NCBI GenBank assembly: GCA_003211535.1
Contig: QCSJ01000004.1
Span: 1-57,783 of the forward strand
Length of the DNA stretch: 57,783 nucleotides
Origin: Synechococcus sp. AG-670-A05
GTDB taxonomy: Bacteria > Cyanobacteriota > Cyanobacteriia > PCC-6307 > Cyanobiaceae
Direction: 5' to 3'
Position 1 is the first letter of the stretch, and every line of letters starts with the position of its first letter. Both the position numbers and the translations under genes were made by a program. Below, in pieces: positions 3,824 through 40,065 of the stretch. The notes under the pieces are model-generated. The model was not told the DNA's origin, ran no database searches, and saw nothing but the letters and a program-made list of their open reading frames with translations.

Positions 3824-3854
3824 AGAGCTGCTGTAGTGGCGGGCATTCTCTCCA

Positions 3855-6105: not shown

Positions 6106-6165
6106 GGGGCGTTCAGCCGATGCCACCACTCTGCCGGGCGGAGAAGGTGAACCCGCCGTAACCTC

Positions 6166-7059
6166 ATGCCAGTGACCGCTGAAACGTTGCGCCGCAGTCT
6201 TGTTGCCTGGGCGTTTCTGTCACCGGCCCTGGTCCTGATCAGTCTTTCGGTCCTGGTCCCTGCGCTGATGGCTCTGCTGATGAGCTTCACCTCTTCCGGC
6301 CTGGACGTGAGCGAGCCACTCCGCTTCGTAGGACTGGCCAACCTGCAGCGGCTTCTGTTGGATCCGATGGTGCTGCGGGTGCTGATTAACACGTTTTTGT
6401 ATCTCTTCGGCGTGGTTCCGCCGATTGTTCTCGGCTCACTGGCCTTGGCGGTTCTAGTGAACCGTTGCCTGCCCGGCAGTCATCTAATGCGCGGCGCTTT
6501 CTACACACCGGTGCTGGTGTCGATCGTGGTGGCGGCTATAGCCTTCCGTTGGCTCTATGCCGAAAACGGTCTGATCAACGGTTGGCTCGTCGCGTTGATT
6601 GGCCCGTCGTTCACCCCCATCGGTTTTCTGACGTCACCACAGCTCGCCTTGCCGGCCGTGATGATGGTGACCTTGTGGAAAGGTCTCGGTTATTACATGG
6701 TGATTTTCCTGGCGGGATTGCAGGGCATCCCCAAGGAGCTGTACGAGGCGGCTGAACTTGACGGCAGTGAGGGCTGGCGTCAGCACGTGGACATCACCCT
6801 GCCCATCCTTCGTCCCTACGTCTTATTGGTGGCGGTGGTTTCATCCATTGCTGCCACGAAGGTGTTCGAGGAGGTGTTTCTGATGACCCAGGGAGGACCT
6901 GCTGATTCAACACGGACCATCGTTTACTACGTCTACGACCAGGCCTTCGCCGAACTGGAGATCAGTTATGCCTGCACCCTCGGGCTGGCACTTTTCCTGA
7001 TGGTGATGCTGTTCACCTTGGTGCGACTGGCCTTCAGTGGAGATCGAGCTCTGATTTAG
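6166..7059 (+). CDS. Sugar-type ABC transporter permease (UgpA/MalF-like), without local partners
   Basis: The 297-residue protein has about six hydrophobic segments and an EAA loop ([23 protein letters not shown]) that docks to the ATPase in this permease class. It resembles UgpA/MalF/LacF subunits. No binding protein, second permease or ATPase sits beside it; the neighbours are aroB and purK. It must pair with subunits encoded elsewhere, possibly including the GgtA ATPase 20 kb away (speculative). The start at ATG 6166 is 60 bases from the divergent aroB start. Confidence 0.85.
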
Positions 7060-7113
7060 AGGTCAGCTGCTCCATTGAGTGGCAAGCTGCGAAGGATTTC
7101 GCACCCACGGGGA

Positions 7114-8277
7114 ATGACCACCACGGCCGAGATGATCGGTGTCGTCGGCGGCGGCCAGCTCGCCCGCATGATGGTGGAGGCTGCTGCAGCTCGCCAGGTG
7201 GCCGTAGCGGTTCAAACTGCTGCCGCGGACGATCCCGCCTGTGCCGGTGCATCCCGTCAAGTTGCAGCGGATCCCCGCGATGTGGCTGGAACCCGTCAAT
7301 TGGTGGTGGGCTGCCAAGGGATCACGTTCGAAAACGAGTGGGTCAACATCGATGCCCTTACTCCTCTGGAGCAGCTGGGAGTGCGGTTCCGACCGGCCCT
7401 CGCCGCCCTCACCCCTCTGGTCAACAAGCTGTCGCAGCGGCAGCTGTTGTCTGATCTTTCAATTGTCACGCCACCGTGGTGTCCTTTGAGTCAGATCTCC
7501 CCGGCTCAGCCAGTCTTGCCTCAGGGGTGGTCTTTTCCGGTGATGGCGAAAGTGGCCCACGGCGGATACGACGGCAAGGGGACCGTAGTTGTGGAGTGCG
7601 TTGAAGACCTGGCCCGCCTAATCCGTGCTGTGGAGAGCGATGAGTGGTTGCTGGAGTCCTGGGTGACATACGAGCGGGAGCTGGCGCTGGTGGTGAGTCG
7701 TGATGCGCAAGGAAGGGTGCGCAGCTTCCCCCTTGTGGAAACTCACCAAAGTCAGCAAGTCTGTGACTGGGTTCTGGCTCCGGCCGCAGTGGATCAAGGG
7801 GTCGAAGCGCAGGCCTACAACGTCGCCGCCTCCCTGCTGACCAAACTCAATTACGTAGGGGTTCTGGCCCTGGAGTTTTTCTTCGGTCCCGACGGTCTGC
7901 AGGTGAACGAAGTGGCTCCAAGAACCCACAATTCTGGCCACTATTCGATCGAAGCCTGCAGCAGCAGTCAATTCGACCAGCAGGTGTGCATCGCTGCCGG
8001 TCTGCCGGTTCCTGCTCCTGAATTCACCAGCAATGGCGCCTTGATGGTGAACCTGCTGGGGCTTGAGACCCCCATCACGCCGCTTCAACAAAGATTGGAT
8101 GCCTTGACAGCTCTACCCGATGCGCACCTGCACTGGTATGGCAAGTCACCGGAAACACAGGGTCGCAAGCTCGGTCACGTGACCGTTCTTTTGCCGGGGC
8201 CTGATGCGAAAGATCGTGAGCAGCAAGCCCAGTCCGCACTGGAGCTGATTCGCGAGATCTGGCCATCCCCCGGTTGA
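7114..8277 (+). CDS. purK: 5-(carboxyamino)imidazole ribonucleotide synthase
   Basis: PurK makes N5-CAIR from AIR, ATP and bicarbonate in purine synthesis. The protein shows the N-terminal GVVGGGQLARMM, the ATP-grasp segment VAHGGYDGKGTVVV, and NEVAPRTHNSGHYSIEAC, all diagnostic of PurK. The track starts at TTG 7075, but the conserved N-terminus fits ATG 7114 or ATG 7132 better; I used 7114 (387 aa). It is followed at once by a candidate 6S RNA gene, an arrangement reported in other cyanobacteria. Confidence 0.94.
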   Translation: MTTTAEMIGVVGGGQLARMMVEAAAARQVAVAVQTAAADDPACAGASRQVAADPRDVAGTRQLVVGCQGITFENEWVNIDALTPLEQLGVRFRPALAALTPLVNKLSQRQLLSDLSIVTPPWCPLSQISPAQPVLPQGWSFPVMAKVAHGGYDGKGTVVVECVEDLARLIRAVESDEWLLESWVTYERELALVVSRDAQGRVRSFPLVETHQSQQVCDWVLAPAAVDQGVEAQAYNVAASLLTKLNYVGVLALEFFFGPDGLQVNEVAPRTHNSGHYSIEACSSSQFDQQVCIAAGLPVPAPEFTSNGALMVNLLGLETPITPLQQRLDALTALPDAHLHWYGKSPETQGRKLGHVTVLLPGPDAKDREQQAQSALELIREIWPSPG

Positions 8278-17642: not shown

Positions 17643-18140
17643 CTATGCAGCCTGAGCGGCGTGGTCCTGCGCCAGGTCCGGAAGAACCGAAAAGGTGCGA
17701 TGGAACTTCTCCGAAAGCGTGATCCAGTACGAGCGTCCTTCGCTCTGACGACGCCGCTCGATGAAGTCCTGGGCCAGCAGCTCCTTGATGTGGTCGTAGG
17801 CACCAGAACCACGCAGATCCACAAGATCGGATTGAAGGATTCGCTTCTTCAGGGCGATCGTCGCCAGGGTTCGCAGCGTGGCGGTGGAGAGATTCACCGG
17901 CAGCATGTCTTGAACCAGGTCCGCGAGTGCGGGTCGCAGCTGTAGTCCGAACTGACCGTTCTGTTCGACGATCTCCAGCGCGGTATCCCGCTGGGCATAG
18001 CCGGCTGACAGGGCCAGAAGGGCCTGTTGCACCGCCTGAGGCTCAGTTCGGGCAAGTTCACACAATTCATTCAGACCGATTGGACGTCCCTTCAAATACA
18101 GGATGGCCTCGATCTGAGCGGCAAGAGACGGTATGGACAT
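17643..18140 (-). CDS. scpB: Segregation and condensation protein B
   Basis: ScpB is a winged-helix kleisin partner of the SMC-ScpA complex that compacts and segregates chromosomes. The protein starts LAAQIEAILYLKGRPIGLNEL and has LRTLATIALKKRILQSDLVDLRGSGAYDHIKELLAQDFIERR, typical of the two winged-helix domains. About 165 residues is at the short end but complete. scpA is not adjacent. It lies between yggT and ilvA on the same strand. Confidence 0.9.
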   Translation of the reverse strand: MSIPSLAAQIEAILYLKGRPIGLNELCELARTEPQAVQQALLALSAGYAQRDTALEIVEQNGQFGLQLRPALADLVQDMLPVNLSTATLRTLATIALKKRILQSDLVDLRGSGAYDHIKELLAQDFIERRRQSEGRSYWITLSEKFHRTFSVLPDLAQDHAAQAA

Positions 18141-18179
18141 CGCGAACCGTCACAATGATCCAAGATATCGCCGTCGACG

Positions 18180-19709
18180 TCAGAGGAACAGGGTGTAGGC
18201 CGGATTCTCGGTTTCATTCCAGTAGGGGTAGCCAAGATTCACGAGGAATGCGTTCCACTGGGGCTGTTCTTCAACCGGGATCAGCACGCCCACCACGATC
18301 CGGCCCACGTCTGCCCCATGGTTTCGGTAATGGAAAATGCTGATGCTCCAGCCGGGGTTGAGGGCACTCACGAAACGCATCAGCGCACCCGGCCGTTCTG
18401 GGAACTCAAAGCGGTAGAGCAGTTCCAGGCACTCTCCAGCACTACTTGTTCTGGAGGAGGACGGAAGACGGCCCCCCACCATGTGACGCAGGTGAACCTT
18501 GGAAAGTTCGTTGTCGCTCAGATCGAGACAGCTGAATCCCTGCTTGTCGAGACCATCCACAAGCTGATGGCGATCCCGCTCCCCGTCCACCTGCACGCCG
18601 ATAAATATGTGTGCTGACGGGCCCTCGCTCATCCGATAGCTGAATTCGGTGAGACTTCGATTGCGCAGGTGATCACAGAGCAATCTGAGACTTCCCGGTT
18701 GCTCCGGGATCTCAACCGCCAGCATCGCTTCACGGTCCTCCCCCAGCTCAGAGCGTTCAGCTATGAACCTCAGTCGGTCGAAATTCATGTTGGCGCCACA
18801 GGCCACCGCCACCAGCCGACGGTTGCTTGAAAAGCGATCGGCCACGTCCTGCTTCAACCCAGCGACGGCCAGGGCACCAGCCGGTTCCAGGATCGAACGC
18901 GTGTCTTCAAACACATCTTTGATGGCGGCACAGATCGCATCGGTGTCGACTCGCACCATCCGATCGACGAATTTCCGGGCCAGTTCAAAGGTGTGTTCGC
19001 CTACTTTTCTCACAGCTACACCGTCAGCAAATAAACCCACCTGGGTGAGTTCAACCCGTTCTCCCTTTTCGATGGACTGGGTCATGGCGTCCGCATCCAG
19101 CGGTTCAACGCCGATGATCTCCGTGCTGGGCCACAGCTGTTTGACATAAGCCGAAATCCCGGCGATCAGTCCGCCGCCGCCGACAGCCACGTAGATGGCA
19201 TCCGGTGGTTCAGGGCTCTGGCGCATGATCTCCAGGCCGATGGTCCCCTGGCCGGCGATCACCTCCGGGTCGTCAAAGGGATGGATGTAGGTGAGACCGT
19301 CTTCAGCACAGCGCTTTCGCGCTTCTGCCGAACATTCGTCATAGGTCTCCCCATGGAGAACCACCTCCCCTCCAAGAGCGCGGACCGCCCGCACCTTCAC
19401 CTCGGGTGTGGTGGCCGGCATCACGATTACTGCTCGGCAACCGAGCTTTCCTGCACTGAGGGCCACCCCCTGAGCATGGTTTCCAGCGCTGGAAGTGATC
19501 ACACCACGGCTCAGTTCCTCCCTGGTGAGCTGGGCCATGCGGTTGTATGCACCTCGCAACTTAAACGAGAACACCGGCTGAAGGTCCTCGCGTTTCAGCA
19601 TCACCTCGTTGCAGAGTCTGCGACTGAGGTTGGGGGCTGGCTCGAGGGGGGTTTCACGAGCAACGTCATAGACGCGAGCCCGCAGGATCCGCTGGAGATA
19701 GTCGGTCAT
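18180..19709 (-). CDS. ilvA: Threonine ammonia-lyase (biosynthetic)
   Basis: IlvA deaminates threonine to 2-oxobutyrate, the first step of isoleucine synthesis. The PLP lysine is in FSFKLRGAYNRMA, the phosphate-binding loop is GGGGLIAGI, and the C-terminal third holds two ACT-like regulatory repeats (beginning MLAVEIPEQPGSLRLLCDHL and LYRFEFPERPGALMRFVSAL). At 509 residues it is the long, feedback-controlled form, so isoleucine and valine should bind the tail. It is divergent from dxs with an 80-base gap. Confidence 0.96.
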   Translation of the reverse strand: MTDYLQRILRARVYDVARETPLEPAPNLSRRLCNEVMLKREDLQPVFSFKLRGAYNRMAQLTREELSRGVITSSAGNHAQGVALSAGKLGCRAVIVMPATTPEVKVRAVRALGGEVVLHGETYDECSAEARKRCAEDGLTYIHPFDDPEVIAGQGTIGLEIMRQSPEPPDAIYVAVGGGGLIAGISAYVKQLWPSTEIIGVEPLDADAMTQSIEKGERVELTQVGLFADGVAVRKVGEHTFELARKFVDRMVRVDTDAICAAIKDVFEDTRSILEPAGALAVAGLKQDVADRFSSNRRLVAVACGANMNFDRLRFIAERSELGEDREAMLAVEIPEQPGSLRLLCDHLRNRSLTEFSYRMSEGPSAHIFIGVQVDGERDRHQLVDGLDKQGFSCLDLSDNELSKVHLRHMVGGRLPSSSRTSSAGECLELLYRFEFPERPGALMRFVSALNPGWSISIFHYRNHGADVGRIVVGVLIPVEEQPQWNAFLVNLGYPYWNETENPAYTLFL

Positions 19710-19789
19710 CCCTCCATTCTCCCCATGTTCAGGGCTAACGGACTCAAGGAACGGACGCCGTAGATTGCATTGATTGGAGTTGATGGTGC

Positions 19790-21721
19790 ATGCATCTCGG
19801 AGATCTGACTCATCCGAATGAGCTGCACGGTCTCAGGCTGTCCGAGCTTGAAGATGTCGCCCGCCAGATTCGAGATCGTCACCTCCAGGTGGTGTCGACC
19901 AGCGGTGGCCATCTCGGCCCTGGCCTCGGTGTTGTTGAGCTCACCCTGGCCCTTTACCAGACCCTTGATCTGGATCGGGACAGGGTCATCTGGGACGTCG
20001 GGCATCAGGCTTACCCCCACAAGTTGATCACAGGTCGTTTCAACGACTTCCACTCCCTGCGCCAGCAAAACGGCGTTGCGGGATACCTCAAACGCTCTGA
20101 AAGCCGCTTCGATCATTTCGGTGCTGGCCATGCCAGCACGTCAATTTCAGCAGCACTGGGCATGGCGATGGCCCGGGACAACCGAGGAGAAGACTTCAAG
20201 TGTGTTGCCGTGATCGGTGATGGCGCGCTTACCGGTGGCATGGCCCTGGAGGCGATTAACCACGCAGGACATCTGCCTGAGACCCCCTTGCTGGTAGTTC
20301 TCAACGACAACGACATGTCGATCTCCCCGCCGGTTGGTGCCTTGTCCAACGTTCTGAACCGCGCCAGGCTCAGTCCGCCGATGCAATTCATCTCCGGCAG
20401 TGTCGAGGAAAGCGTTCGACATCTGCCCTTCATGGGCGGTGAGCTTCCTGCCGAGTTGAACCGCCTCAAGGGCAGCATGCGTCGTCTGGCGGTGCCGAAA
20501 GTGGGAGCTGTGTTTGAGGAGCTGGGCTTCACGTACATGGGCCCGATCGATGGCCATGACATCGGCGAAATGATGCGGACCTTCCAGGCCGCTCATCGGG
20601 ACGGCGGTCCAGTGCTGGTGCATCTAGTCACCAAAAAAGGCAAGGGTTACCCCTACGCCGAAGCTGATCAGGTCGGTTACCACGCTCAGTCAGCCTTTGA
20701 TCTGAGCACCGGGAAGGCCATTCCCTCGACAAAGCCGAAACCAGCCAGTTACAGCAAGGTGTTCGGCCAGACCCTTGTCAAGCTCTGCGAACAGAACAGC
20801 CGTGTGGTGGGGATCACCGCGGCCATGGCCACCGGAACAGGCCTGGATCTTCTGCAGAAAGCTGTTCCGAACCAATATGTGGACGTCGGGATCGCCGAGC
20901 AGCACGCGGTCACCCTTGCTGCAGGCATGGCTTGTGAGGGTATGCGCCCCGTGGTGGCGATCTACAGCACCTTCCTGCAGCGGGCCTTCGACCAGCTGAT
21001 CCACGACGTCGGCATTCAGAACCTGCCGGTGACCTTTGTTTTGGACCGGGCCGGCATTGTTGGTGCCGATGGCCCGACGCATCAAGGCCAATACGACATC
21101 AGCTACATGCGAGCAATCCCCAATTTCACGGTGATGGCTCCCAAGGATGAGGCTGAATTACAGCGGATGATGGTGACCTGTTTGAACCACGACGGACCCA
21201 CCGCCCTGCGCATCCCCCGCGGGTCCGGGGTTGGCATGCCGTTGATGGAAGAAGGCTGGGAATCGCTCCCCATCGGACGCGGCGAGCTGCTTCGCGAGGG
21301 AGACGATCTGCTGATCGTGGCCTACGGGTCCATGGTGTATCCCGCTCTGGACACCGCCACACTGCTGGAGGAAGCCGGTCTTTCCTCCACGATCATCAAT
21401 GCGCGCTTCCTTCGCCCTCTGGATCAAGCCCTGATCCACCCGCTGGCGCGACGCATTCAGCGGGTGGTGACCATGGAAGAGGGTGCTCTCGCTGGCGGAC
21501 TCGGCTCCGCTGTTCTCGAGTCACTCTCCGATCAGGACATCAGTGTGCCGCTGCTGCGCATTGGTATCCCGGACAAAATGGTCGACCATGCCACTCCGCA
21601 GCAGAGCAAGGAATCTCTTGGGCTGACCCCAGTTCAGATGGCGGAACGTATTCGTCGACGTTTTGAGCTGGGTGGACGTGACTTTGCCGGTGCATCGTCG
21701 GTACCGATCATCCAGTCCTGA
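19790..21721 (+). CDS. dxs: 1-deoxy-D-xylulose-5-phosphate synthase
   Basis: DXS condenses pyruvate and glyceraldehyde-3-phosphate, the entry step of the MEP pathway for carotenoids, phytol and other isoprenoids. The thiamine-diphosphate motif is [18 protein letters not shown] through [15 protein letters not shown]. The transketolase-like middle has [16 protein letters not shown] with the catalytic Glu, and [15 protein letters not shown]. The 643-residue length is normal. A geranylgeranyl-reductase-like gene follows 18 bases later, consistent with a small isoprenoid unit. Confidence 0.97.
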
Positions 21722-21739
21722 ACGCAGAGCTGTTCAGCG

Positions 21740-22903
21740 GTGCGCGTTCTGATTGCCGGGGCGGGACCGGCAGGCAGCAGCCTGGCTGTCCAACTCGCTG
21801 AGGGAGGCTGGACCGTGGCGTTGGTGGATGCCCTCTCCTCACCCGAGCGGAATGCCTTTTCCAGCGCAGCGCTTCCCCTCGCTGATGCTGACCGTCTGGG
21901 AATTCCAGCTTCGTGTTGTTCCGCCAATTGGTGGGGGTGGCAGCTGTTGGATCCCGACGGTCTCGAACACCAGTGGTGGGCTGTCGAGCAACAGGGGGTG
22001 GTGCTGGATTTCGCGTTGTTCAGAACCCACCTCTGGGATCGTGCCAGGCGGTGCGGGGTGGAGCTGCTGAATGGATGCCGGGTGAATCTTGATCGGCTGA
22101 ACGCACACTCGGCCGATGTGATCTTGTCCTCAGCTGGCAATAAGCAGCATCGAACGGTCGACCTTGTGGTGGATGCCACGGGACCAGGGAGGCATCTGCA
22201 ACGGCAGGCTGGCGTCGCCCTTGAGTCCCAGGACGACCCCTTGCTCAGCGGAGACGGGGTGGAATGGCTGCTCCAGGGAGACCCTCGCAGTACCGCGCGT
22301 TGGCGCGATCGGCTCAGTTTCATGTTGGGGCGTGACTGGATGGCTCACGGTTACGGCTGGGTTTTTCCGATGGCACATGACCAACTGAAGGTTGGGGTTT
22401 GCCGGTTGGCCCCTCCCCATGCTCACAACGCTCCTTTGAGACGTTCACTGCGACGGTTGCTGCAACGATGCGGCCTTGATCAGCTGCCGGTGCTGGATCG
22501 TCATGGTGGCCGTGTTGCAAGCACGATCAAACGGCGTCAACCCCTTGGTAGTGCCTCGCTCTGGGCGGTTGGAGACGCAGCAAGCACGGCCAATCTGCTG
22601 GGCGGTGAAGGCATCCGCCATGCCATGGATAGTGCATCAGTTCTGAGCCAATGCCTGCTTACGGGGGGATCCCACCGGGACTATCAAATTGCTCTTATAC
22701 AACGACTCGGCTGGCGCTGGACCGTATCCAATCGCCTGGCGCGGCGCACCTGGTGGGGCCTTAACACAGCCGATGCGGATCGGAGAATGTCTCTACTAAT
22801 TAATGGACTCTCTGGACAGGCCTCGGCTGAGGACCTGTCCAGTTTGTTGTTTGCGTATCGATTTGAGCGTTACGGCTGGCGTCTTCTGCCTTACTTAGTC
22901 TGA
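21740..22903 (+). CDS. FAD-dependent oxidoreductase, geranylgeranyl-reductase family
   Basis: The 387-residue protein starts at GTG 21740 with a dinucleotide fold (VLIAGAGPAGSSLAVQLAE). It has a WVFPMAHDQLKVGVCR segment and a second FAD motif, WAVGDAASTANLLGGEGIRHAMDSA, which is characteristic of geranylgeranyl reductase and related hydroxylases. It is not canonical ChlP, which is longer and conserved elsewhere. It directly follows dxs, so an isoprenoid substrate is plausible but inferred. A lycopene-cyclase-like role cannot be excluded. Confidence 0.8.
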   Translation: MRVLIAGAGPAGSSLAVQLAEGGWTVALVDALSSPERNAFSSAALPLADADRLGIPASCCSANWWGWQLLDPDGLEHQWWAVEQQGVVLDFALFRTHLWDRARRCGVELLNGCRVNLDRLNAHSADVILSSAGNKQHRTVDLVVDATGPGRHLQRQAGVALESQDDPLLSGDGVEWLLQGDPRSTARWRDRLSFMLGRDWMAHGYGWVFPMAHDQLKVGVCRLAPPHAHNAPLRRSLRRLLQRCGLDQLPVLDRHGGRVASTIKRRQPLGSASLWAVGDAASTANLLGGEGIRHAMDSASVLSQCLLTGGSHRDYQIALIQRLGWRWTVSNRLARRTWWGLNTADADRRMSLLINGLSGQASAEDLSSLLFAYRFERYGWRLLPYLV

Positions 22904-22916
22904 ATGCGGCAGCTAT

Positions 22917-23174
22917 TCAGAGAACACCGCGGGCTGCCAGACCCTGGATGGCACCGATGCCGATAATGTGGCCGAGGCTGGTTGTTCCCAGCAGTGCTGC
23001 ATGACCCATGCCACCGAAGAAGGCTGCGTTCGGCAGCGCGGCACCTTCGTTGGGGTGCTTTATGGTGGCCTTGCCCACGGCAATGGCGATCACATTGCAG
23101 ACAATCATCACCAGGGCAACCTTCGGAGACCAGGTCACGGTTGCAGGGGCGATGGCGAAGAGAGGGGTCAGCAT
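22917..23174 (-). CDS. psaK: Photosystem I subunit PsaK
   Basis: PsaK is a small two-helix subunit at the edge of photosystem I. The 85-residue protein has helix one in WSPKVALVMIVCNVIAIAVG, a basic loop, and helix two in LLGTTSLGHIIGIGAIQGLA, with GMGHAALLGTTSLGHIIG typical of PsaK. It converges with the dxs-linked flavoprotein gene. Cyanobacteria may have two psaK genes; this appears to be the housekeeping type, though that is uncertain. Confidence 0.92.
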   Translation of the reverse strand: MLTPLFAIAPATVTWSPKVALVMIVCNVIAIAVGKATIKHPNEGAALPNAAFFGGMGHAALLGTTSLGHIIGIGAIQGLAARGVL

Positions 23175-23231
23175 TCAAGCCAGTGAGCGACGATCCATCT
23201 TCCGCGCTCAGCAGTCTTCTGTCTGCACCTC

Positions 23232-23528
23232 TTAAGAGTTGTTCATCCTGCTGGTGTCGGAACGAAGCAAGCCGATCACCAGAACGGCATTGGCCAGGGT
23301 GAGAAAGGCTTCCGCTCCGCCATGCAGGACATCCACCGCCACCAGCTCCGCATTACAGCAGCGCAGCGCCAGCACGGCGGCGCCGATAGTCATCAGCACG
23401 AACAACAACGTCAGCCGGAACCCCCAGAGTGCGAGTTCCGGCAGGGCCTCACTTCGTTTGAGCCAACGGAGAAACAGCAGATAGGGCAGCAGAGACAGGG
23501 CGAACAGAGGTGCGGGATCAAAGTCCAT
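23232..23528 (-). CDS. DUF3593 membrane protein
   Basis: A 98-residue protein with three hydrophobic segments, beginning PLFALSLLPYLLFLRWLKRS and continuing LALWGFRLTLLFVLMTIGAA. I recognise the cyanobacteria/plastid family DUF3593. It lies three bases after the DUF2499 gene on the same strand; the two families are usually paired, and plant homologues are plastid-targeted. The role is unknown; a thylakoid or cytoplasmic membrane location is likely. Confidence 0.75.
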   Translation of the reverse strand: MDFDPAPLFALSLLPYLLFLRWLKRSEALPELALWGFRLTLLFVLMTIGAAVLALRCCNAELVAVDVLHGGAEAFLTLANAVLVIGLLRSDTSRMNNS

Positions 23529-23531
23529 GGC

Positions 23532-23810
23532 TCAGCTCGTTGTCCGACGTTGCAGGAGGATCCACGCCGCCCACGCCAACCCAATGTTGCCGATGAGGGT
23601 GAGGGCCGCCTGTAGGGTCACCAGGGGGCGAAGGACTTCGCTGTTATCGAACAGATGCCAGGTGCACGCAGCCATAGCACTGATCAGAGCTGGCACCATG
23701 GCCATGGCTAACCACGGAAGTCCTCGGCGTTGAATAAGGACGATGGCCAGGCTCCACTCGATCACCGAGGTGACATGGATCCACCAGGTGCCGAGAGAGA
23801 GGGAATGCAT
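23532..23810 (-). CDS. DUF2499 membrane protein
   Basis: The 92-residue protein begins MHSLSLGTWWIHVTSVIEW and has AMVPALISAMAACTWHLFDN, both characteristic of DUF2499, with about three membrane helices. It is upstream of and nearly touching the DUF3593 gene, so the pair is probably one transcript and perhaps one complex. Function unknown. It is divergent from csaB with 59 bases between the starts. Confidence 0.8.
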   Translation of the reverse strand: MHSLSLGTWWIHVTSVIEWSLAIVLIQRRGLPWLAMAMVPALISAMAACTWHLFDNSEVLRPLVTLQAALTLIGNIGLAWAAWILLQRRTTS

Positions 23811-23869
23811 ATGATCACCCTAAACAGAGGGTCGGTCGATAATCTGCCCCACTCAGAGAGGTCAGTCCC

Positions 23870-24934
23870 GTGGCTGCCAGATCCATTCCGGCCTACCTCC
23901 TCTGTGGCTACTACGGTGAGAACAACCTCGGGGATGACGCCCTGCTGACGGTTCTGCTCAGGGAGATTCCGCAGCCCTGTCGCCTGCTCGTCACCGCCCA
24001 CGACTCGGATGCACTCGCTGGACTGGCTCCCAATGCCGAAGTGGTAAACCGTCGGTCCCTGCGTTCGGTTCTGCGATCAATTGGACGGGTTGATGCCGTG
24101 GTGTTCGGTGGCGGCAGCCTGCTCCAGGACAGCACCAGTTTTCGCAGCCTGATCTATTACCTGGTGATCATCGCCATGGCCAGTTTGCGGGGCCGCCCTG
24201 TGCTGCTCTGGGGTCAGGGGCTCGGTCCGCTTCAACGTCCCATCAGCCGTGGAATGGTGCGCCTGCTGCTTCCTGCCTGCCGCAGTGCCAGCTGGCGGGA
24301 TCAGACGTCCATGGACCGAGCCAGGCGCTTGGCTCCTCAGTTGCCTGTGCAGCTCGCACCGGATCCGGTCTGGGGACTGCCCAGCCAGTCCTGGACCGGA
24401 GGTCAATCGATCGTGGTGTGCTGGCGTCCATCCCCCTTGCTGTGCCTTCGAAAGTGGACTGTGTTGCTGAATGCTCTGCAGGCGCTGGCGGAGGATCTAG
24501 ATGCACCGGTCCGTTGGTTAGCGTTTCATCGCCATCAGGATGCAGAGCTGCTTGAATGGCTAGCTGATCAAGGGGTCGTTACTTCTGTGCTGCGTTCACG
24601 CATCACAACAGTCCTTCCTTCGTCGCTGGAAACGGTTTTTGCATCGGTTCGTAAGGCCCGCCTGGTTATCCCGATGCGGCTCCATGCCCTGATCCTGGCC
24701 CGACTCGCCCTCTGTCCGATGGCAGCCTTGAGTTACGACCCCAAGGTGGAAGCCGCCGCAGCCATGGCGGGAGTTCCCTGCACCTCTCTCGATGCGCTGC
24801 CAGATGAACAGGCGCTCCTGAGCCAATGGAGAACTGCCTTGGACAACCCAGCCGACCCCGAGCAGGTGGAGCACATCCGATCCCGAGCAGCCCTCCATGG
24901 CCGCCAACTCAGGCGCTTCCTGCCTCAGCGGTGA
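23870..24934 (+). CDS. csaB: Polysaccharide pyruvyl transferase CsaB
   Basis: CsaB-type enzymes add ketal-linked pyruvate to cell-wall polysaccharide, which can anchor SLH-domain proteins. The start is GTG 23870 with AGAGAGG upstream. The N-terminus YLLCGYYGENNLGDDALL is the family signature, and VFGGGSLLQDSTSFRSLIYY and RLVIPMRLHALILARLA follow. The 354-residue length is complete. Its stop lies next to the 3' end of the sphX-like pseudogene on the other strand. Confidence 0.9.
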   Translation: MAARSIPAYLLCGYYGENNLGDDALLTVLLREIPQPCRLLVTAHDSDALAGLAPNAEVVNRRSLRSVLRSIGRVDAVVFGGGSLLQDSTSFRSLIYYLVIIAMASLRGRPVLLWGQGLGPLQRPISRGMVRLLLPACRSASWRDQTSMDRARRLAPQLPVQLAPDPVWGLPSQSWTGGQSIVVCWRPSPLLCLRKWTVLLNALQALAEDLDAPVRWLAFHRHQDAELLEWLADQGVVTSVLRSRITTVLPSSLETVFASVRKARLVIPMRLHALILARLALCPMAALSYDPKVEAAAAMAGVPCTSLDALPDEQALLSQWRTALDNPADPEQVEHIRSRAALHGRQLRRFLPQR

Positions 24935-25959
24935 TATTCGGGTTTGTGTTGATCAAAACTGCGATCGATGCCCTGCCCGTTGGTGAGATCCACCGGCAGA
25001 TTGCTGGCGAAACTGGTGCCATGGATATGGCGGTATTTCTTTGAATTATTAAGCCGGTAGGTGGCATCCGGCAAAGAGATGTAGTTGCTCTTGGTCGCCA
25101 ATATGCTGATGTTGCGCAGGTAATAGCTGATGAATTGCCTGAAGTGCTTGTTGTTTATTAGGATTGATCATTGACATAAAGAATCAATGGGCGTGACAAA
25201 TATCGCTAGTGCTCGTTGTGTCCACTTTTGATGGAGAGTATCACGGAGTTGTCTTTGGGATTGGCAATCTTTAGGGTTTTCGTTTTGATAATATTTTTTT
25301 TGGAATAGGCATAGCCGAAGTACGTCGGAGTCTGTCGATTATCTGCCACATATTTTACAAGGTCATTATCATCCTCGCTGGCGAGTTAATCCGAGCTTGA
25401 ATTGGTTTTGGAATAATTGATGGTGTTATTGAAGATGTCAAAGGTTCTTTACTCCTAGCCCAGTCCATACAGCTTTATGGCCTCATCTGGACAGTCAAGG
25501 TTGACCTGATTCCAGGGTTTGATCCTCCCTTGAGCGGTTTTGTTCCAGAGTCTGGAGAGTTCATTAAGGTCAGTGATCTCGCCCAGTCATTGCCTGGGTT
25601 TATCACCACGGTGATGATATCGAACGCGATGGGGAGTTCAATGAAGTTGATGACCTCATGTGCACAACGTTTCAGTTCCTTGCTGGAGACGGGTCGCGAA
25701 GCGTTCGCCAGGGGATTGTCGCCACTACAGAATTCGCGTAACCCTGCCGTTGAGCCCGTTTCCTTGATGTCAAAGTCAACAGGCTTTCTCTGAACTGTTG
25801 TTCGATATCCCTGAATGGCTGCTTTGGTGATCGGGAAGACGGCGCCGGTGCCACTAATGCGGATGGTGTCAGCTCCATTGGCGAAGGTGCCGGTTAACCC
25901 AATTACAGCGCTAAATCCTGCAAGCAATGTAGCGAACGGAGCGTGAAACGGGACACCAT
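24925..25959 (-). pseudogene. Decayed phosphate-binding protein gene (SphX/PstS family)
   Basis: Minus-strand reading gives a near full-length phosphate-binding protein spread over several frames. Pieces in order are an N-terminal leader from ATG 25959, TIRISGTGAVFPITKAA, REFCSGDNPLANASRPVSSK, HEVINFIELPIAFDIITVV, then after a shift QGRIKPWNQVN and AIKLYGLG followed by stops, then TPTYFGYAYSKKN and finally FISYYLRNISILATKSNYI. These align in order with SphX-like binding proteins of about 340 residues. Frameshifts near 25935 and 25540, internal stops near 25450 and further lesions downstream make it non-functional. It is AT-richer than its neighbours. Confidence 0.85.
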
Positions 25960-26019
25960 CGAATATGAGAAATGTGCCCCAATTTGCGCGGTGTGCTGTG
26001 GAGTGGGCATAAGGTTTCG

Positions 26020-26991
26020 TTACTCTGCCAGCCGGTGTCCACTGCCGGCATCAAAGCGATGCTCCGCACTGGTCAGCCAGCTCACGTGTAACGGCTCGCT
26101 CAGGGAGAGATCACCGGCACAAAGCATCCTCAGAGCACCACGGGGGCTGTCCAGCAATAACAACTGGCTAGCCCCCTGCCATTCACGACTGATCAGGCGG
26201 CAGGGCATGCCTTCTGGATCGAAGCCAACGTCCTCCGGTCGGATGCCAATGGTGAGCTGTTTATCCACGGGAAGCAGATTGATCTGTGGACGGCCGATGA
26301 AGCTGGCGACAAATTGGCTGGCCGGCGTTTTGTAGAGCTCTTCAGGTGTTCCGATCTGTTCGATACGTCCGTCCTTGAGGACGGCAATCCGGTTGGCTAG
26401 AGCCATCGCCTCCTGTTGGTCGTGAGTGACATACAGCACAGGTTGGGTTCCCTGCAGAATCAGCTGGCGCAGTTCCGGACGAAGGTCATCGCGCAACTGT
26501 GCATCCAGGTTGCTCATCGGTTCATCCAACAGGTACACCCTTGGATCGCGGAGCAGAGCTCTGGCCAGGGCAACCCGTTGACGCTGGCCGCCTGAAAGCT
26601 GCTGGGGACGTCGATCGGCCATCTCCCGCAATCTCACCGTGTCCAATACCGTCTCGATCCGTTGTTGCCGTTGAGCGGGGGAAACACCGCGGATCTTCAA
26701 ACCGAGGTTGAGGTTCTCCCGCACGCTCAGGTGAGGAAACAGTGCATAGCTCTGGAACACCATGGCGATGCGACGGCGTTCCGCGGGGATGCTGTCAAGC
26801 GGCTCACCGTCGAGTTCGATGGATCCCTCGTCCTGTCGATCCAATCCGGCGATCAAGCGCAGTGCCGTGCTTTTGCCACAACCGCTGGTACCCAGTAAGG
26901 CGACACATTCGCCCTCATCAACTTGCATATTGAGGTCCCGCAGAATCCACTGCTCCCCGAAGCGTTTTCCCAGCCCGTTCAGATGCAGCAT
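26020..26991 (-). CDS. ggtA: ABC transporter ATP-binding protein, probable GgtA
   Basis: The MalK/UgpC-type ATPase has Walker A GTSGCGKST, the Q-loop in MVFQSYALFPHLSV, signature LSGGQRQRVALARALL, Walker B VYLLDEPMSNLD and a C-terminal TOBE-like regulatory region (TIGIRPEDVGFDPEG). At 323 residues it is slightly shorter than MalK. It is the last gene of the ggpS operon and shares one base with ggtD, so it most likely powers glucosylglycerol uptake. In Synechocystis ggtA lies apart from ggtBCD, so the clustering differs here. Confidence 0.9.
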   Translation of the reverse strand: MLHLNGLGKRFGEQWILRDLNMQVDEGECVALLGTSGCGKSTALRLIAGLDRQDEGSIELDGEPLDSIPAERRRIAMVFQSYALFPHLSVRENLNLGLKIRGVSPAQRQQRIETVLDTVRLREMADRRPQQLSGGQRQRVALARALLRDPRVYLLDEPMSNLDAQLRDDLRPELRQLILQGTQPVLYVTHDQQEAMALANRIAVLKDGRIEQIGTPEELYKTPASQFVASFIGRPQINLLPVDKQLTIGIRPEDVGFDPEGMPCRLISREWQGASQLLLLDSPRGALRMLCAGDLSLSEPLHVSWLTSAEHRFDAGSGHRLAE

Positions 26992-27809
26992 CAGCCTTTG
27001 ATCGCTCCGTTGGTCAGCCCGGACACGATCTGACGCTGACAGATCAGCACCAGCAACAGCAGAGGAATGGATCCCAGAACCGTCGCTGCGGCATAGGCGC
27101 CGTAGGGAATGGAATAGATCGACGATCCGGCAATGCGGGCCATGGCAACTGGAAGGGTCAGCAGTTCGTCCCGGCTGAGCCAGGTCAGTGCGATGGGATA
27201 CTCATTCCAGGCGAACAGAAACACCAGGATCGCCGTGCTTGCGGTGGCTGGAGCCAGCAGGGGTACCAGCACCCACCGGAGGCGTTGCCACAGCCCCAGC
27301 CCCTCCAATCGGGCCGCATCCTCCAATTCCCTGGGGAGTGATTCAAAGACTGAGGTCAGCAGCAGCAGGGCCAAGGGCATTGCGAGTCCTGAATAGGGCA
27401 TGGCCAGGGCGATGAGACTGTTGCCGAGTGAAAAGCGACGAGCAAGTTCCAGCAATGCGAGAAACAGCAAGACGTAGGGAAAAAGTGCAGCTGCAACGGT
27501 GATCCAACGCAGAACGCGCCGCAGCTGCAGGGGAACTCTGGCCAGGCCATAGGCAGCTGGGATGGCAAGAGCAAGTGTGATGACGGTGGTAAGAGCGCTG
27601 ACGATTGCGCTGTTAAGCAGATAGCGCCAGAAGGGTGGGTCGCTTGCCAGCAACTCCTTGTAGTGAACAAGGGTCCACCGCTGCAGGAATGGAATCGATC
27701 CGTTCACCAGTGATTCCGCAGTGGAAAAGGAGCTGATCAGTTGCCAGAGCATTGGGAGCAAAGACCACACCAGCAATAGGCAGATCCAGAGTGCAAGCCG
27801 GCGCTTCAT
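26991..27809 (-). CDS. ggtD: ABC permease, probable GgtD
   Basis: A 272-residue MalG-type permease with about six helices and the EAA loop (LEDAARLEGLGLWQRLRWVLVPLLAPA). A start near LALWICLLLVWSLLPMLW provides the first helix. It overlaps ggtC by 4 bases and ggtA by 1. With GgtC it should form the membrane channel of the compatible-solute importer. The substrate is inferred from ggpS in the same operon. Confidence 0.88.
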   Translation of the reverse strand: MKRRLALWICLLLVWSLLPMLWQLISSFSTAESLVNGSIPFLQRWTLVHYKELLASDPPFWRYLLNSAIVSALTTVITLALAIPAAYGLARVPLQLRRVLRWITVAAALFPYVLLFLALLELARRFSLGNSLIALAMPYSGLAMPLALLLLTSVFESLPRELEDAARLEGLGLWQRLRWVLVPLLAPATASTAILVFLFAWNEYPIALTWLSRDELLTLPVAMARIAGSSIYSIPYGAYAAATVLGSIPLLLLVLICQRQIVSGLTNGAIKG

Positions 27810-28672
27810 GGTTGCACCGGTTTCATCAGACCGCTTAGGCGCAGCAGCATGGCCAGGATCAGCATCGCCGACGTGAGCAGCAGAAAACCTGCCAGCATCG
27901 CCGTGGCGCTGTATCCGAAATCAAGGAATCGCATGGCATTCAGGTAGGCATAGAGCGCCACGCTTTCGGTGCTACCGGCCGGTCCTCCCCCCGTGAGCAC
28001 CTGGATGAGATCAAAAACGCCGAAGGCCTGGGCACCACGGAACAACAGAGCAATCAGGACGTAGGGCATTAACAACGGCAGGGTGATGCACCTCAGGGCC
28101 TGGATCGGCCGTCCACCTTCGAGACGGAAGGCGCTGTAAAGATCCTTCGGGATGGTCTGCAAGCCAGCCAGCAACAGAAGTGCGATGAATGGCGTTGTCT
28201 TCCAGACATCGGCCACAACAGTGACAAGCCATGTCCACATGGGGGTGGACAGGAGATTCAGAGGTCCCAGCCCCACAAATTCATTCAGACGTTCGAGGGG
28301 ACCGTAGGGGGTGTTGAAGATCCATCGCCAGCCGAGTGCCATCATTGTGGTGGGTAATGCCCAGGGCAGTAAGGCCAAGGCCCGCACCACCCCCCGTCCA
28401 CGCCAGCGTTGATCCAGCAAAAGGGCAATCGCAAGAGCTAGCAGCAGTTCAAGGCCAACGGAAACGCCGGCGAACCGGGTGGTCTGGAGCGCGTCCTGCC
28501 AGAAGCGCTGATCATCCAGCAAGCGAATCCAGTTAGCCCCGCCATTGGGCACAGGGTTGAGCCCGGTCAGGACTGAATTGGCGTGAAAACTCAGCCAGCC
28601 ATAGCGGATCATCGGCCAGACAAAGACCAGGCCAATCATCAGCAACGCCGGCAGCAGCAACAGCAGATTCAT
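27806..28672 (-). CDS. ggtC: ABC permease, probable GgtC
   Basis: A 288-residue MalF-type permease. It shows a first helix (LLLLLPALLMIGLVFVWPMI), an EAA-type loop reading YSAFRLEGGRPIQALRCITLPLL, and the conserved VLTGGGPAGSTESVALYAY segment common to sugar permeases. It overlaps both ggtB and ggtD by 4 bases, indicating translational coupling. It is the partner of GgtD. Confidence 0.88.
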   Translation of the reverse strand: MNLLLLLPALLMIGLVFVWPMIRYGWLSFHANSVLTGLNPVPNGGANWIRLLDDQRFWQDALQTTRFAGVSVGLELLLALAIALLLDQRWRGRGVVRALALLPWALPTTMMALGWRWIFNTPYGPLERLNEFVGLGPLNLLSTPMWTWLVTVVADVWKTTPFIALLLLAGLQTIPKDLYSAFRLEGGRPIQALRCITLPLLMPYVLIALLFRGAQAFGVFDLIQVLTGGGPAGSTESVALYAYLNAMRFLDFGYSATAMLAGFLLLTSAMLILAMLLRLSGLMKPVQP

Positions 28673-29931
28673 GCGGTGCCCCCAGCGGAACGGAATAAGG
28701 TGAGGGTCGAGGCCTGGGCCTGAGCCATCCCTTCATCCGGATCAAGATCTTCCGTGAGGATTGCGCTCAGCATGCGCTGCAGCAGATCGCTCATCTGGGC
28801 GTAGAGAGGGGACATAGGTCTTGGAACGGCCTGATCCAGGGCCTGCTCCAGCTGCGGCAAGACCGCGGATCGTTCCACCAGCTCCGGATCCTGGAAGAGA
28901 GCTTTTGCTGTGGGTGTGTAGCCCTGGTTCAGAAAGCGTTCCCGCTGGGCGTCCTGGCTGGTGAGGTAACGGATCGCTTCCGCAGTGGCTGAAGGATGGG
29001 GCGTGTCCCGCAACATGCTCAATCCCCAGCTGCCGAGGGTGGCGGCAGGGGTCTGCCCTGGCAGGGCAACCATGGTAGTGACGCCGATGCGGCCCTTCAC
29101 GGCACTGTCATCTCCCTGCAGTTCCGCCCAGGCGTAGGGCCAGTTGCGCATCAGCGCTGCATCACCTGCCTTGAATGCCTGCAGGGACTCCGACTCGGCG
29201 TAATTGGTGACGGCCCTCGGGCTGATTCCATCGCTGATCAGACCTTTCATCCATGTCGCGGTCTGACGAGCCGCCGGGCTGTCGAGGCTCGGTTCTCCAC
29301 TGACCGGGTTGAGCCAGGACCCACCGAACGCCTGGATCATTTCCACAAAATCGCAGCTGAGGCCTTCGTACTGACGCGCCTGCCAGACAAACCCTTGGGG
29401 TGCTTGACCCTCCTGCTGAAGTTTGCCCACCACAGCGGTGAGTTCATCCGGCGTCCTTGGTGGATCGGCCATCAGGTCCGTGCGCCAGTACAGCAGGCCG
29501 ACATCGGCACCCAGGGGCCAGCGGTACAGGGCGCCGTTCACCCGGTTGCCGAGCCGAGCCCCCTCAACCAGACCCTGCTCATCAGCGGTGTCAAACCACG
29601 GATCCAGAGGTTCCAGCCATCCGGCGGCCACATATTTCGGCAGCCAAGTCACATCCACCAGAAGGGCATCAAACGGCGGAGATCCCAGCAGCAGACTGCT
29701 GATGGCCAGATCGGAAATGGATTCGGTCTCCAAGGGGCCCCGGCTTACGTTGAGATGAATCCGCCCGCGGTTATCAGCGTTGAACCGATTCACCAACGAC
29801 GCCGTGGCATCGGCGTAGGGCGCTGGCATCAGGATCGTGACCGACTGGACCTGCTCTGGACGTCCCCAGACGACACCAACCAGCAGGAGGAATCCGAGAC
29901 CGATGGCGAACAACCCGCGCCGAAACAACAT
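28669..29931 (-). CDS. ggtB: ABC substrate-binding protein, probable GgtB
   Basis: The 420-residue extracellular binding protein (family 1) has an N-terminal signal/anchor (LFAIGLGFLLLVGVVWG) and no obvious lipobox cysteine. Sugar-binding features include FDALLVDVTWLPKYVAAGWLEPL, YRWPLGADVGLLYWRTDLM and ALMRNWPYAWAEL. It should bind glucosylglycerol and perhaps sucrose or trehalose, as known for Synechocystis GgtB. It sits directly after ggpS with a one-base overlap. Confidence 0.88.
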   Translation of the reverse strand: MLFRRGLFAIGLGFLLLVGVVWGRPEQVQSVTILMPAPYADATASLVNRFNADNRGRIHLNVSRGPLETESISDLAISSLLLGSPPFDALLVDVTWLPKYVAAGWLEPLDPWFDTADEQGLVEGARLGNRVNGALYRWPLGADVGLLYWRTDLMADPPRTPDELTAVVGKLQQEGQAPQGFVWQARQYEGLSCDFVEMIQAFGGSWLNPVSGEPSLDSPAARQTATWMKGLISDGISPRAVTNYAESESLQAFKAGDAALMRNWPYAWAELQGDDSAVKGRIGVTTMVALPGQTPAATLGSWGLSMLRDTPHPSATAEAIRYLTSQDAQRERFLNQGYTPTAKALFQDPELVERSAVLPQLEQALDQAVPRPMSPLYAQMSDLLQRMLSAILTEDLDPDEGMAQAQASTLTLFRSAGGTA

Positions 29932-31418
29932 CAGTTGACGATGGAAACCTCAGGGAACCCTGCCAGTTGCTCTTGGGCCCAGTCCCTCACGGTGTAAGCC
30001 TCCACTGCCGCAGACATGGTCTCCATCCGATGCCGTTGCTCATCTTCAGGCATTTCAAGAGCGGCCTCGATGGCCTCATCCATGCGGCGATTGGAATAGG
30101 GATTGGTCAAGACGGCTCCCTCAAGAACGACGGATGCTCCGGTGAATTCCGAAAGCACCAGCACCCCGCCGCGATGACGGCGAGCTGCGGCGTATTCCTT
30201 GGCCACCAGGTTCAATCCATCCCGCAGCGGCGTGATCCAGCAGACGTCCGCATGGCAGAACCAGGCCACCATCTCTTCATAGGGAATGCGCCGGGTGGAG
30301 AAGCGCACAGGAATCCAATCCACCTGACTGAAGCGTCCATTGATGCGACCGGCCATCTCTTCGATGGAACGCTGCGTTTCCTCGTAGATCTTCATGCCAC
30401 TGGCTGCAGCCACGCAGGCCAGCATCAGGACGACTTCGCCATGCAGGTTCTCGCGACGCTCGAGCAGCCTCTCAAAAGCCAGAAGTAACTCTTCGTTGCC
30501 CTTGGTGTAATCAACTCTGCTTGCTGAAAGGATTAATTTACGACCTTTCTTAGTGTCTTGAACAATCATTTCTCCATAACTTTCAACGGAAGCACTCCAC
30601 GACAATTCCTGAATCACATCTGGTGATGTTCCAACCGGAGAGCTCAGCAGTTGAATGCGTCGACCGTTGTGATCGAGATGGCTTGTCACCGTTCCTTCCG
30701 AAAGGGCGGTGCCGACAGTGATGAATTTTTTATCAACAGGGACTTTGGGTCCCCGTTTGGCTCCAACTAGGGTGCTTGCAGCTCGTGCAAAATTCTCGGT
30801 GTAACGGGGGATATGGAAGCCGACAACGTCACAACACAGCAGACTCTTCAGAATCTGTTCTCTCCAGGGAAGGATGGCGAAAACGTCATTTCCTGGAAAA
30901 GGAGTGTGGTGGAAGAAGGCGATTTTCAGATCTGGCCGCTGTTGTCGGATATAGCCAGGAGCAAGCCAGAGGTTGTAATCATGTACCCAAACAGTGGCAC
31001 CCTCACCGGCCTCGGCACAGGCTGCGTCGGCGAATCTTCTATTAACCTCTTCAAAAATGCTCCAGTTAGCGTTATTGACATTGAAGTGAGTTGGGAATGT
31101 ATGGAGAATCGGCCAGAAGCTTTCTTTGGAAGTGATGTGATAAAAACTTGATATCTGTTCATCAGCCAAAGGGATCCTGCACAATGTGAACGGAGAAGGA
31201 TTTTTCATCTCAATCCTTTCAAGATCCATTTCCGCTGGTTCATCGACACGACGCCAGGCTATCCAGGTGCCGTCGTCTCTCGTTCGGAAAAGATTTCTAA
31301 GTGTCGGAATGATTCCATTGGGACTCTTCTGGTCCACCCAGATCTGGTTTCCGGCAGCGTCTTTTCCCTCGTCAAAAGGGGTTCGGTGATAAAGAATGAC
31401 AAACGAACTCTGTCCCAT
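29931..31418 (-). CDS. ggpS: Glucosylglycerol-phosphate synthase
   Basis: GgpS joins ADP-glucose and glycerol-3-phosphate to make glucosylglycerol-phosphate, precursor of the main osmolyte of many marine cyanobacteria. The GT20 fold is clear: ILYHRTPFDEG at the start, VWVHDYNLWLAPGYIRQ, FFHHTPFPGNDVFAILPWRE and the donor-site run ITPLRDGLNLVAKEYAAARR. It is closer to GgpS than to trehalose-phosphate synthase. I chose ATG 31418; ATG 31448 adds ten residues. The phosphatase (GgpP/StpA) is not in the window. It heads the ggt operon. Confidence 0.93.
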   Translation of the reverse strand: MGQSSFVILYHRTPFDEGKDAAGNQIWVDQKSPNGIIPTLRNLFRTRDDGTWIAWRRVDEPAEMDLERIEMKNPSPFTLCRIPLADEQISSFYHITSKESFWPILHTFPTHFNVNNANWSIFEEVNRRFADAACAEAGEGATVWVHDYNLWLAPGYIRQQRPDLKIAFFHHTPFPGNDVFAILPWREQILKSLLCCDVVGFHIPRYTENFARAASTLVGAKRGPKVPVDKKFITVGTALSEGTVTSHLDHNGRRIQLLSSPVGTSPDVIQELSWSASVESYGEMIVQDTKKGRKLILSASRVDYTKGNEELLLAFERLLERRENLHGEVVLMLACVAAASGMKIYEETQRSIEEMAGRINGRFSQVDWIPVRFSTRRIPYEEMVAWFCHADVCWITPLRDGLNLVAKEYAAARRHRGGVLVLSEFTGASVVLEGAVLTNPYSNRRMDEAIEAALEMPEDEQRHRMETMSAAVEAYTVRDWAQEQLAGFPEVSIVN

Positions 31419-31469
31419 ATAACAATCCAAACTATTATTTTTTATCATTTCACAACTGCCCTGTTTCTG

Positions 31470-38194: not shown

Positions 38195-39112
38195 TTACTT
38201 GGCAGCAAATCGGGCCAGCCAACGGGATAACAGATTCAAGCCGAGAATCATCACAACGAGGACAAATGAGGCAGACCATGCCAACTCGTTGTGGAACTCA
38301 TAGGGCATGATCGCGAAGTTGTAGATCAGGACCGACAAGGATGCGATTGGTGCCAAGATTCCATCTGTCGACAGCAGATCAGACCAGAAGGGCGAGAACA
38401 AGGCTGTAAAGATCAGTGGAGCTGTTTCACCAGCAGCCCTGGCAATGGCCAGAACCACTCCAGTGGCAATCGGAGTGAAGGCCGTCGGCAGGGTGATGCG
38501 CACAATGGTGACAAATCTGGAAGCACCCACTCCCAGGGCACCCCTTCGCAGATCGTTAGAGACGAGCTTGAGACCTTCATCGGTGGTTTTGATCACAGTG
38601 GGCAGCATCAGGATCGACAGAGCCATGCCACCTGCCAGAGCGCTGTAGGCATTGCCGAACAGCACACGACTGGTGACGATCGTTCCATAAATGAACACGC
38701 CGGCGATGATCGAGGGCACACCAGAAAGCACATTGGTTCCAAAGCGGATGAATTGTGCAAACCAACCGTTCCGCGAATACTCAGCAAGAAAAATTCCTCC
38801 GCCGACTCCTACGGGAATCGCGATCAATGCTGCAACTACTGTGACCACCAGGGTGCCGACGATGGCATTGGCGATTCCGCCTCCATCCAATCCAGGCGGT
38901 GGTGGTAACTCCGTGAAGAGAACAAGACTGATGTTGCTACCACCTCTGACGATGACGTAGCCGAGAACGAGGATCAACGGCAGAACTGCAACAACGGAGA
39001 AGATCCCAGCGATGAAGGTCAGGATTCTGCTACCGACATTTCTGGCCAGACCTGGTTTGTAGGAGAGGTCAGGAATTCCATCGGAAGCACGATTGGAATA
39101 AGGGGAAGCCAT
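38195..39112 (-). CDS. pstA: Phosphate ABC transporter permease PstA
   Basis: PstA is one of two membrane subunits of the phosphate importer. The 305-residue protein has about six helices and PstA features such as GVPSIIAGVFIYGTIV and ALAGGMALSILMLPTVIKTTDEGLKLV. It starts two bases after the pstC stop, consistent with one operon. A 69-base gap separates it from pstB. Confidence 0.95.
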   Translation of the reverse strand: MASPYSNRASDGIPDLSYKPGLARNVGSRILTFIAGIFSVVAVLPLILVLGYVIVRGGSNISLVLFTELPPPPGLDGGGIANAIVGTLVVTVVAALIAIPVGVGGGIFLAEYSRNGWFAQFIRFGTNVLSGVPSIIAGVFIYGTIVTSRVLFGNAYSALAGGMALSILMLPTVIKTTDEGLKLVSNDLRRGALGVGASRFVTIVRITLPTAFTPIATGVVLAIARAAGETAPLIFTALFSPFWSDLLSTDGILAPIASLSVLIYNFAIMPYEFHNELAWSASFVLVVMILGLNLLSRWLARFAAK

Positions 39113-39114
39113 AA

Positions 39115-40065
39115 TTAGTACTTAAGGCTGAGACGCTTCACAAGCCATTGGGCAAGAATGTTCACCGTAAGAGTCATGATTATCAGAATGAACGCCGCAT
39201 ACATCAGTGAAGAGACCTGAGAGCCATCAGCTTCTCCGAATTGATTGGCGAGCATTGCTGCAATCGTGTTGCCGGGTGCCAGCAATGAAATACTGAAATT
39301 ATTGGAATTACCGATGATCATGGTCACCGCCATCGTTTCACCCATGGCTCGGCCGAGAGCCAGCATCACTCCGCCGACAATTCCTGAAACCGCCGCTGGC
39401 AACATCACATTCATAATGGCGCCCCACCGGGTTGTGCCGATGCCGTAGGCCGCTTGACGCAGTTTCTGCGGAACCTGATTCAGGGAGTCACGGGAAATGG
39501 CCGTGATGATCGGCAGAATCATCACCACCAGAATCAGCACGGCGGGAATAGTGCCGGGCCCCATGGGTGGGGTACTGAAAAAGGGGATCCAGTTGAACAG
39601 CTCATACAGCAGCTCAAGTCCTGGACGAATGATCGGCTCCAACACGAAGATGGCCCAGAGGCCGAGCACAACGGAAGGAATCGCGGCAAGCAATTCCACC
39701 ATCACACCAATCAAAACGCGAATTTGTCGCGGAATGATGTTTTCAGTGATGAAGATTGCTGTGCCAACGCCCAGTGGTACGGCGATGAGCAATGACAGCA
39801 TGGAGGTCACCAATGTTCCGTAGATGGCGGCTCCGGCTCCATATTCATCGTCAACCGGATTCCAGTCGGAGGTGATCAGGAATTGCCAGCCGTAGCGCCC
39901 CATCGACTCGAGGCTCCCCCTGAAAACAATAATGAGGATTAGGAACAACACAACTGCGACCATAGAGGCCAGGATCACAGCGAGGTTCTTGAAGCCAACG
40001 TCCACCAGCCTCTCTGATGGCGGGCGATTCCTCAGTAGGTATTGGTTGTCCTTTTCGTTGGACAT
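39115..40065 (-). CDS. pstC: Phosphate ABC transporter permease PstC
   Basis: PstC pairs with PstA. The protein has an N-terminal helix (LAVILASMVAVVLFLILIIVFRG), GTLVTSMLSLLIAVPLGVGTAIF, and the loop LNQVPQKLRQAAYGIGTTRWGAIMNVMLP contacting the ATPase. I chose ATG 40065 (MSNEKDNQ) over GTG 40071. It is the first gene of the operon; no pstS precedes it. It is divergent from dnaK with 144 bases between, containing a possible Pho box. Confidence 0.95.
   Translation of the reverse strand: MSNEKDNQYLLRNRPPSERLVDVGFKNLAVILASMVAVVLFLILIIVFRGSLESMGRYGWQFLITSDWNPVDDEYGAGAAIYGTLVTSMLSLLIAVPLGVGTAIFITENIIPRQIRVLIGVMVELLAAIPSVVLGLWAIFVLEPIIRPGLELLYELFNWIPFFSTPPMGPGTIPAVLILVVMILPIITAISRDSLNQVPQKLRQAAYGIGTTRWGAIMNVMLPAAVSGIVGGVMLALGRAMGETMAVTMIIGNSNNFSISLLAPGNTIAAMLANQFGEADGSQVSSLMYAAFILIIMTLTVNILAQWLVKRLSLKY

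Follow-up and report, generated by a model that had tools for sequence, protein, structure and literature searches.

The window, a stretch of 57,783 nucleotides, corresponds to contig C4 in the draft genome (G000; 2.0 Mb in 142 contigs, 83% complete) of a marine Synechococcus-type cyanobacterium. Among public sequences, its csaB gene is most closely matched on contigs from marine Synechococcus or in marine bins filed under other labels. The nearest complete genome compared is G020 (protein identity 88% for csaB and 92% for ggtA), with G024 next. Approximately 17 kb surrounding the sphX site are collinear with G020 at 85% DNA identity. A sphX 99.4% identical to that of G020 is also found on the public contig PAAY01000100.1, labelled Saprospirales, which is a mislabelled Synechococcus contig. 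The features of the window considered here are as follows.

23870..24934, plus strand: csaB-like polysaccharide pyruvyl transferase, intact (TIGR03609, 352 bits)
24925..25959, minus strand: sphX pseudogene, near full length, in three frames (alignment with intact sphX; Pfam PBP_like_2)
25926..25927, minus strand: frameshift 1, one-base deletion between these bases (alignment)
25567..25568, minus strand: frameshift 2, one-base deletion between these bases (alignment)
25455..25457, minus strand: premature stop TAG (Gln codon 169 in G020; alignment)
25449..25451, minus strand: premature stop TAA (Ser codon 171 in G020; alignment)
25386..25388, minus strand: premature stop TAA (Tyr codon 192 in G020; alignment)
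25206..25208, minus strand: premature stop TAG (Tyr codon 252 in G020; alignment)
25162..25163, minus strand: frameshift 3, one-base deletion between these bases (alignment)
26020..26991, minus strand: ABC transporter ATPase of the sugar/glucosylglycerol type in the ggtA position, intact, upstream of sphX (profile matches)
29931..31448, minus strand: glucosylglycerol-phosphate synthase (ggpS), intact (TIGR02398, 883 bits)
38210..39993, minus strand: phosphate permease genes, intact (TIGR02138 matches without stops)
38210-39025, minus strand: pstA-like gene (TIGR02138)
39133-39993, minus strand: pstC (TIGR02138)

The csaB gene is convergent with the sphX pseudogene, and its 3′ end overlaps the sphX stop codon by 10 bases. 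On the other side, the ABC transporter of the osmolyte operon spans 26020-29931 and is followed by ggpS, which bears out the initial annotation in placing the remnant next to an osmolyte operon. That annotation had also described a near full-length SphX/PstS gene whose segments lie in order but in several frames with internal stops, and this description holds, with coordinates exact to the base. A tblastn search of the window with the intact G020 SphX (345 amino acids) returns three collinear minus-strand segments in three frames, corresponding to residues 12-132 (76% identity), 132-266 (65%) and 212-345 (52%), and the best E-value of ~1e-94 rules out a chance match. DNA alignment with five intact sphX genes (G020, G024, G009, G005 and G007) spans the whole gene without a large gap, starting at the ATG (25957-25959) and ending at the TGA (24925-24927). 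Relative to the intact G020 orthologue, the gene has lost one base at each of three places and gained four in-frame stops but has undergone no large loss, and the locus is without a single open frame running from signal peptide to stop.

The assignment to SphX is based on subfamily profiles. The G020 orthologue scores 237 bits against TIGR02136 (cut-off 206.6) and 55.7 against TIGR00975, whereas the single intact PstS of the draft genome, on contig C53, shows the reverse. The name itself rests on the TIGR02136 subfamily, on gene counts matching published ones and on the lead of the initial annotation. By profile (TIGR02136, PF12849) the window copy belongs to the same family as sphX of marine clade III Synechococcus such as WH8102 and of the freshwater Synechococcus PCC 7942, but here the gene is inactivated by its frameshifts and stops. 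No other SphX copy was found in the 83% complete draft, and no earlier report of a sphX pseudogene in Synechococcus was found in the literature searched.

Position supports orthology. Intact sphX occupies the same csaB/ggtA junction in G020, G024, G009 (on two contigs), G005, G007 and G012. A csaB relative is found in all 34 genomes of the genus, and in 25 of the 34 csaB and ggtA are separated by just 1-33 bases, the spacing seen in the many Synechococcus genomes without sphX. The distribution agrees with published counts, in which sphX is kept by all clade III strains and missing from nearly all of clades I, II and IV (PMC7522525). Two genomes have long csaB/ggtA gaps filled with other sequence, G019 (C1:119933-121303; 1371 bases) and G010 (C82:8458-8874; 417 bases), and no recognisable sphX remnant was found in either gap.

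Loss of constraint was assessed from lineage-specific changes polarised with G024 as outgroup. At codon positions 1, 2 and 3 of sphX, the window lineage has 39, 35 and 56 changes vs 12, 7 and 50 in G020, giving a (1+2)/3 ratio of 1.33 (bootstrap 0.94-1.87) in the window and 0.38 (0.23-0.61) in G020. Third-position changes are similar in both lineages, and the excess at positions 1 and 2 therefore reflects lost protein constraint. The flanking genes evolve normally in the window lineage (csaB 17/7/45; ggtA 17/8/33). Changes toward AT outnumber those toward GC in the window sphX (70 vs 36), compared with 29 vs 31 in G020. The gene has thus far escaped any large deletion, yet purifying selection on its protein is gone and its decay is not fresh: sphX has been free of constraint for approximately 0.58 of the time that has passed since the lineage parted from G020 (bootstrap 0.33-0.90), a rough figure that assumes neutral positions 1 and 2 to change as fast as third positions and that would be lowered by the partial constraint on third positions themselves. 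The initial annotation judged the decay recent enough to read; it is readable, but recent only in part, as it extends over about half of the window branch, counted from the split with the nearest sequenced relative.

These figures also bear on two readings in which sphX would be less damaged than it appears. A draft in 142 contigs could carry sequencing or assembly errors in an otherwise intact gene, but seven disabling changes fall within 1 kb while both neighbours are open, position 1 and 2 changes are about fourfold those of G020 with third-position changes equal, and random errors would not be expected to be confined to sphX; the substitution pattern and the intact flanks speak against assembly error, and we reject this reading as extremely improbable. 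The second concerns the longest open segment (25475-25927, 150 amino acids), which might encode a functional truncated protein. Alone it passes the curated cut-off of PBP_like_2 (PF12849; 50.4 bits against a cut-off of 27, with 128.6 for the intact G020 orthologue), and it has a possible TTG start. However, frameshift 1 cuts it off from the normal start and signal peptide, and it lacks most of the remaining protein. The excess of position 1 and 2 changes is moreover seen in each third of the gene, including the first (13/8/16 vs 5/1/17 in G020), and hence the open N-terminal segment is not preserved by selection; a functional N-terminal fragment is rejected on this ground and has next to no probability left.

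What, then, has become of the other phosphate-binding proteins? G020 has sphX and three PstS, and in the nearest relatives generally sphX is one of about four such proteins, whereas the draft genome holds one intact PstS. The G020 copies were named after those of WH8102 by their context as pstS1a (adjoining ptrA), pstS1b and pstS2 (PMC10846223), and comparison with G020 located the corresponding sites on other contigs of the draft genome.

C1, 5191-5249 of the piece 58000-69000: pstS2 absent between its usual neighbours
C95, about 3710-4090: pstS1b remnant
C17, about 5900-6335 and 6435-7154 of the piece 18000-30000: pstS1a remnant and adjoining ptrA

The pstS2 site lies inside an unbroken contig, with both neighbours present (86-88% identity) and the gene cleanly gone. 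At the pstS1b site the start and last third of the gene are joined in frame over a deletion of ~0.6 kb, and one base is missing near the end. The pstS1a site likewise retains the start and last third around a ~0.6 kb internal deletion, together with a TAA and a one-base insertion, and the adjoining ptrA is 86% identical to its G020 counterpart with one in-frame stop (TAG). At both internal deletions the joined ends are short similar stretches (GGTGC-type), a hint that the deletions may have arisen between short repeats.

As a control, 61 open frames of G020 were compared with the draft contigs in the same regions. Of the 18 that were flagged, nearly all proved on inspection to be contig ends, antisense shadow frames or longer starts; those that look truly broken were sphX, ptrA (via a shadow frame) and, on C61, a gene for an iron-type binding protein. 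On the strength of these frames, general genome decay or poor assembly is rejected. The iron-type ABC substrate-binding gene (C61, 8855-9867; near phoX in G020) carries a single in-frame stop and a single frameshift and has lost 21 bases, so that decay extends to a second class of nutrient-binding gene.

With a probability of roughly 0.85, the window carries a unitary pseudogene of sphX, which codes for a periplasmic phosphate-binding protein, and the gene decayed under relaxed selection as phosphate delivery came to depend on a single remaining PstS. An intact sphX stood at the csaB/ggtA site in the ancestor shared with G020 and G024. Selection on the protein stopped roughly halfway along the branch of the window lineage, after which point mutations and one-base deletions built up without a large deletion. 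The likely cause of the relaxation is that the single Pst permease, whose genes are intact in the window, came to be supplied by one PstS encoded on another contig; besides sphX, this lineage has lost or broken pstS1a, pstS1b, pstS2 and the regulator ptrA. Homology, positional orthology, the defects, the loss of constraint and the state of the other sites are established by the comparisons themselves. From the co-occurrence of the losses in one genome we infer that they share one cause, and the PstS on C53 presumably serves the Pst permease, although with the draft at 83% in 142 contigs a further phosphate-binding protein may lie in the missing part. The initial annotation had offered two explanations, loss of a redundant SphX paralogue or a change in phosphate acquisition strategy. 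Redundancy is supported by the count of about four binders in relatives against one intact PstS and intact pst permease genes here, but "paralogue" fits only if the wider PstS/SphX family is meant. A changed strategy gains support from the further losses at the three pstS sites and ptrA, and may have gone in either of two directions.

The remaining PstS has unusual company. Side by side on C53 (2384-8351) are a porin (OprB-type), a PtrA-like CRP-family regulator (59% identical to PtrA), an MFS transporter, GAPDH and PstS, the counterparts of which are scattered in separate places in G020. In the GAPDH/MFS pair, which we take to be the ArsJ arsenate pathway, Pfam finds no more than the MFS_1 and GAPDH domains. 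The PstS is closest to pstS1a (85% DNA identity), and it reads GAGATFPA where the pstS1a of G020, G024, G005, G007, G009 and G012 reads GAGASFPA. Threonine at this motif has been proposed to explain the ~tenfold higher affinity of WH8102 PstS1b (PMC10846223).

Two histories could have relaxed selection on sphX. The phosphate-binding genes may have decayed after a move to phosphate-richer water, a tentative reading that we place short of even odds. Virtually all strains of clades I, II and IV are without sphX, and clades I and IV are also without phoBR, while all clade III strains keep sphX and have at least three pstS copies (PMC7522525). The loss or breakage of sphX, all three pstS genes and ptrA fits this pattern. 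PhoX was not found in the draft, but the place of phoX lies past the end of contig C61, and genes surrounding the phoBR region are missing from the draft too, so that the absence of phoX and phoBR is not usable. On contig C30, around position 6603, collinearity with G020 ends right next to the phoBR region. Also against richer water are the threonine of the C53 PstS, typical of the high-affinity PstS1b, and the neighbourhood of this gene with the GAPDH/MFS pair and the PtrA-like regulator.

Alternatively, one high-affinity PstS in a phosphate/arsenate gene group may have made the scattered binders redundant, which is possible but somewhat doubtful. The grouping on C53 of a pstS1a-type PstS bearing GAGATFPA with a PtrA paralogue, GAPDH, an MFS transporter and a porin, all apart in G020, argues for consolidation of this kind, as does the proposed basis of the higher affinity of WH8102 PstS1b (PMC10846223). 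However, the high affinity of the C53 PstS is a prediction from sequence, and the contig is assigned to this genome by binning and by its 85-88% DNA identity to G020, a level that is typical of the genome and is no proof of membership. Taken to its full extent, consolidation could mean that the entire ancestral set (sphX, pstS1a, pstS1b and pstS2) and ptrA were dismantled by different mutational routes, and that the single Pst permease is now run by a PstS that has relocated to a phosphate/arsenate gene group and has there acquired the high-affinity threonine. Such a repertoire replacement, caught midway, may be ventured only with reserve.

Clade-dependent presence of sphX and pstS is established in Synechococcus (PMC7522525; PMC10846223), and the genome described here likewise shows a variable phosphate-binding repertoire. 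Since clade-dependent loss of such genes is already known, the interest lies in the set of losses and not in sphX alone. In contrast to those clade losses, the loss here is caught half way, with sphX still full length and pstS1a and pstS1b surviving as deletion remnants. The presence or absence of sphX and extra pstS genes is used as a marker of phosphate niche in marine Synechococcus. In this one genome the loss is seen in progress at several loci and through different mutational routes, which makes it possible to estimate its order and timing. The one PstS that was retained offers a direct test between phosphate plenty and consolidation on one high-affinity binder.
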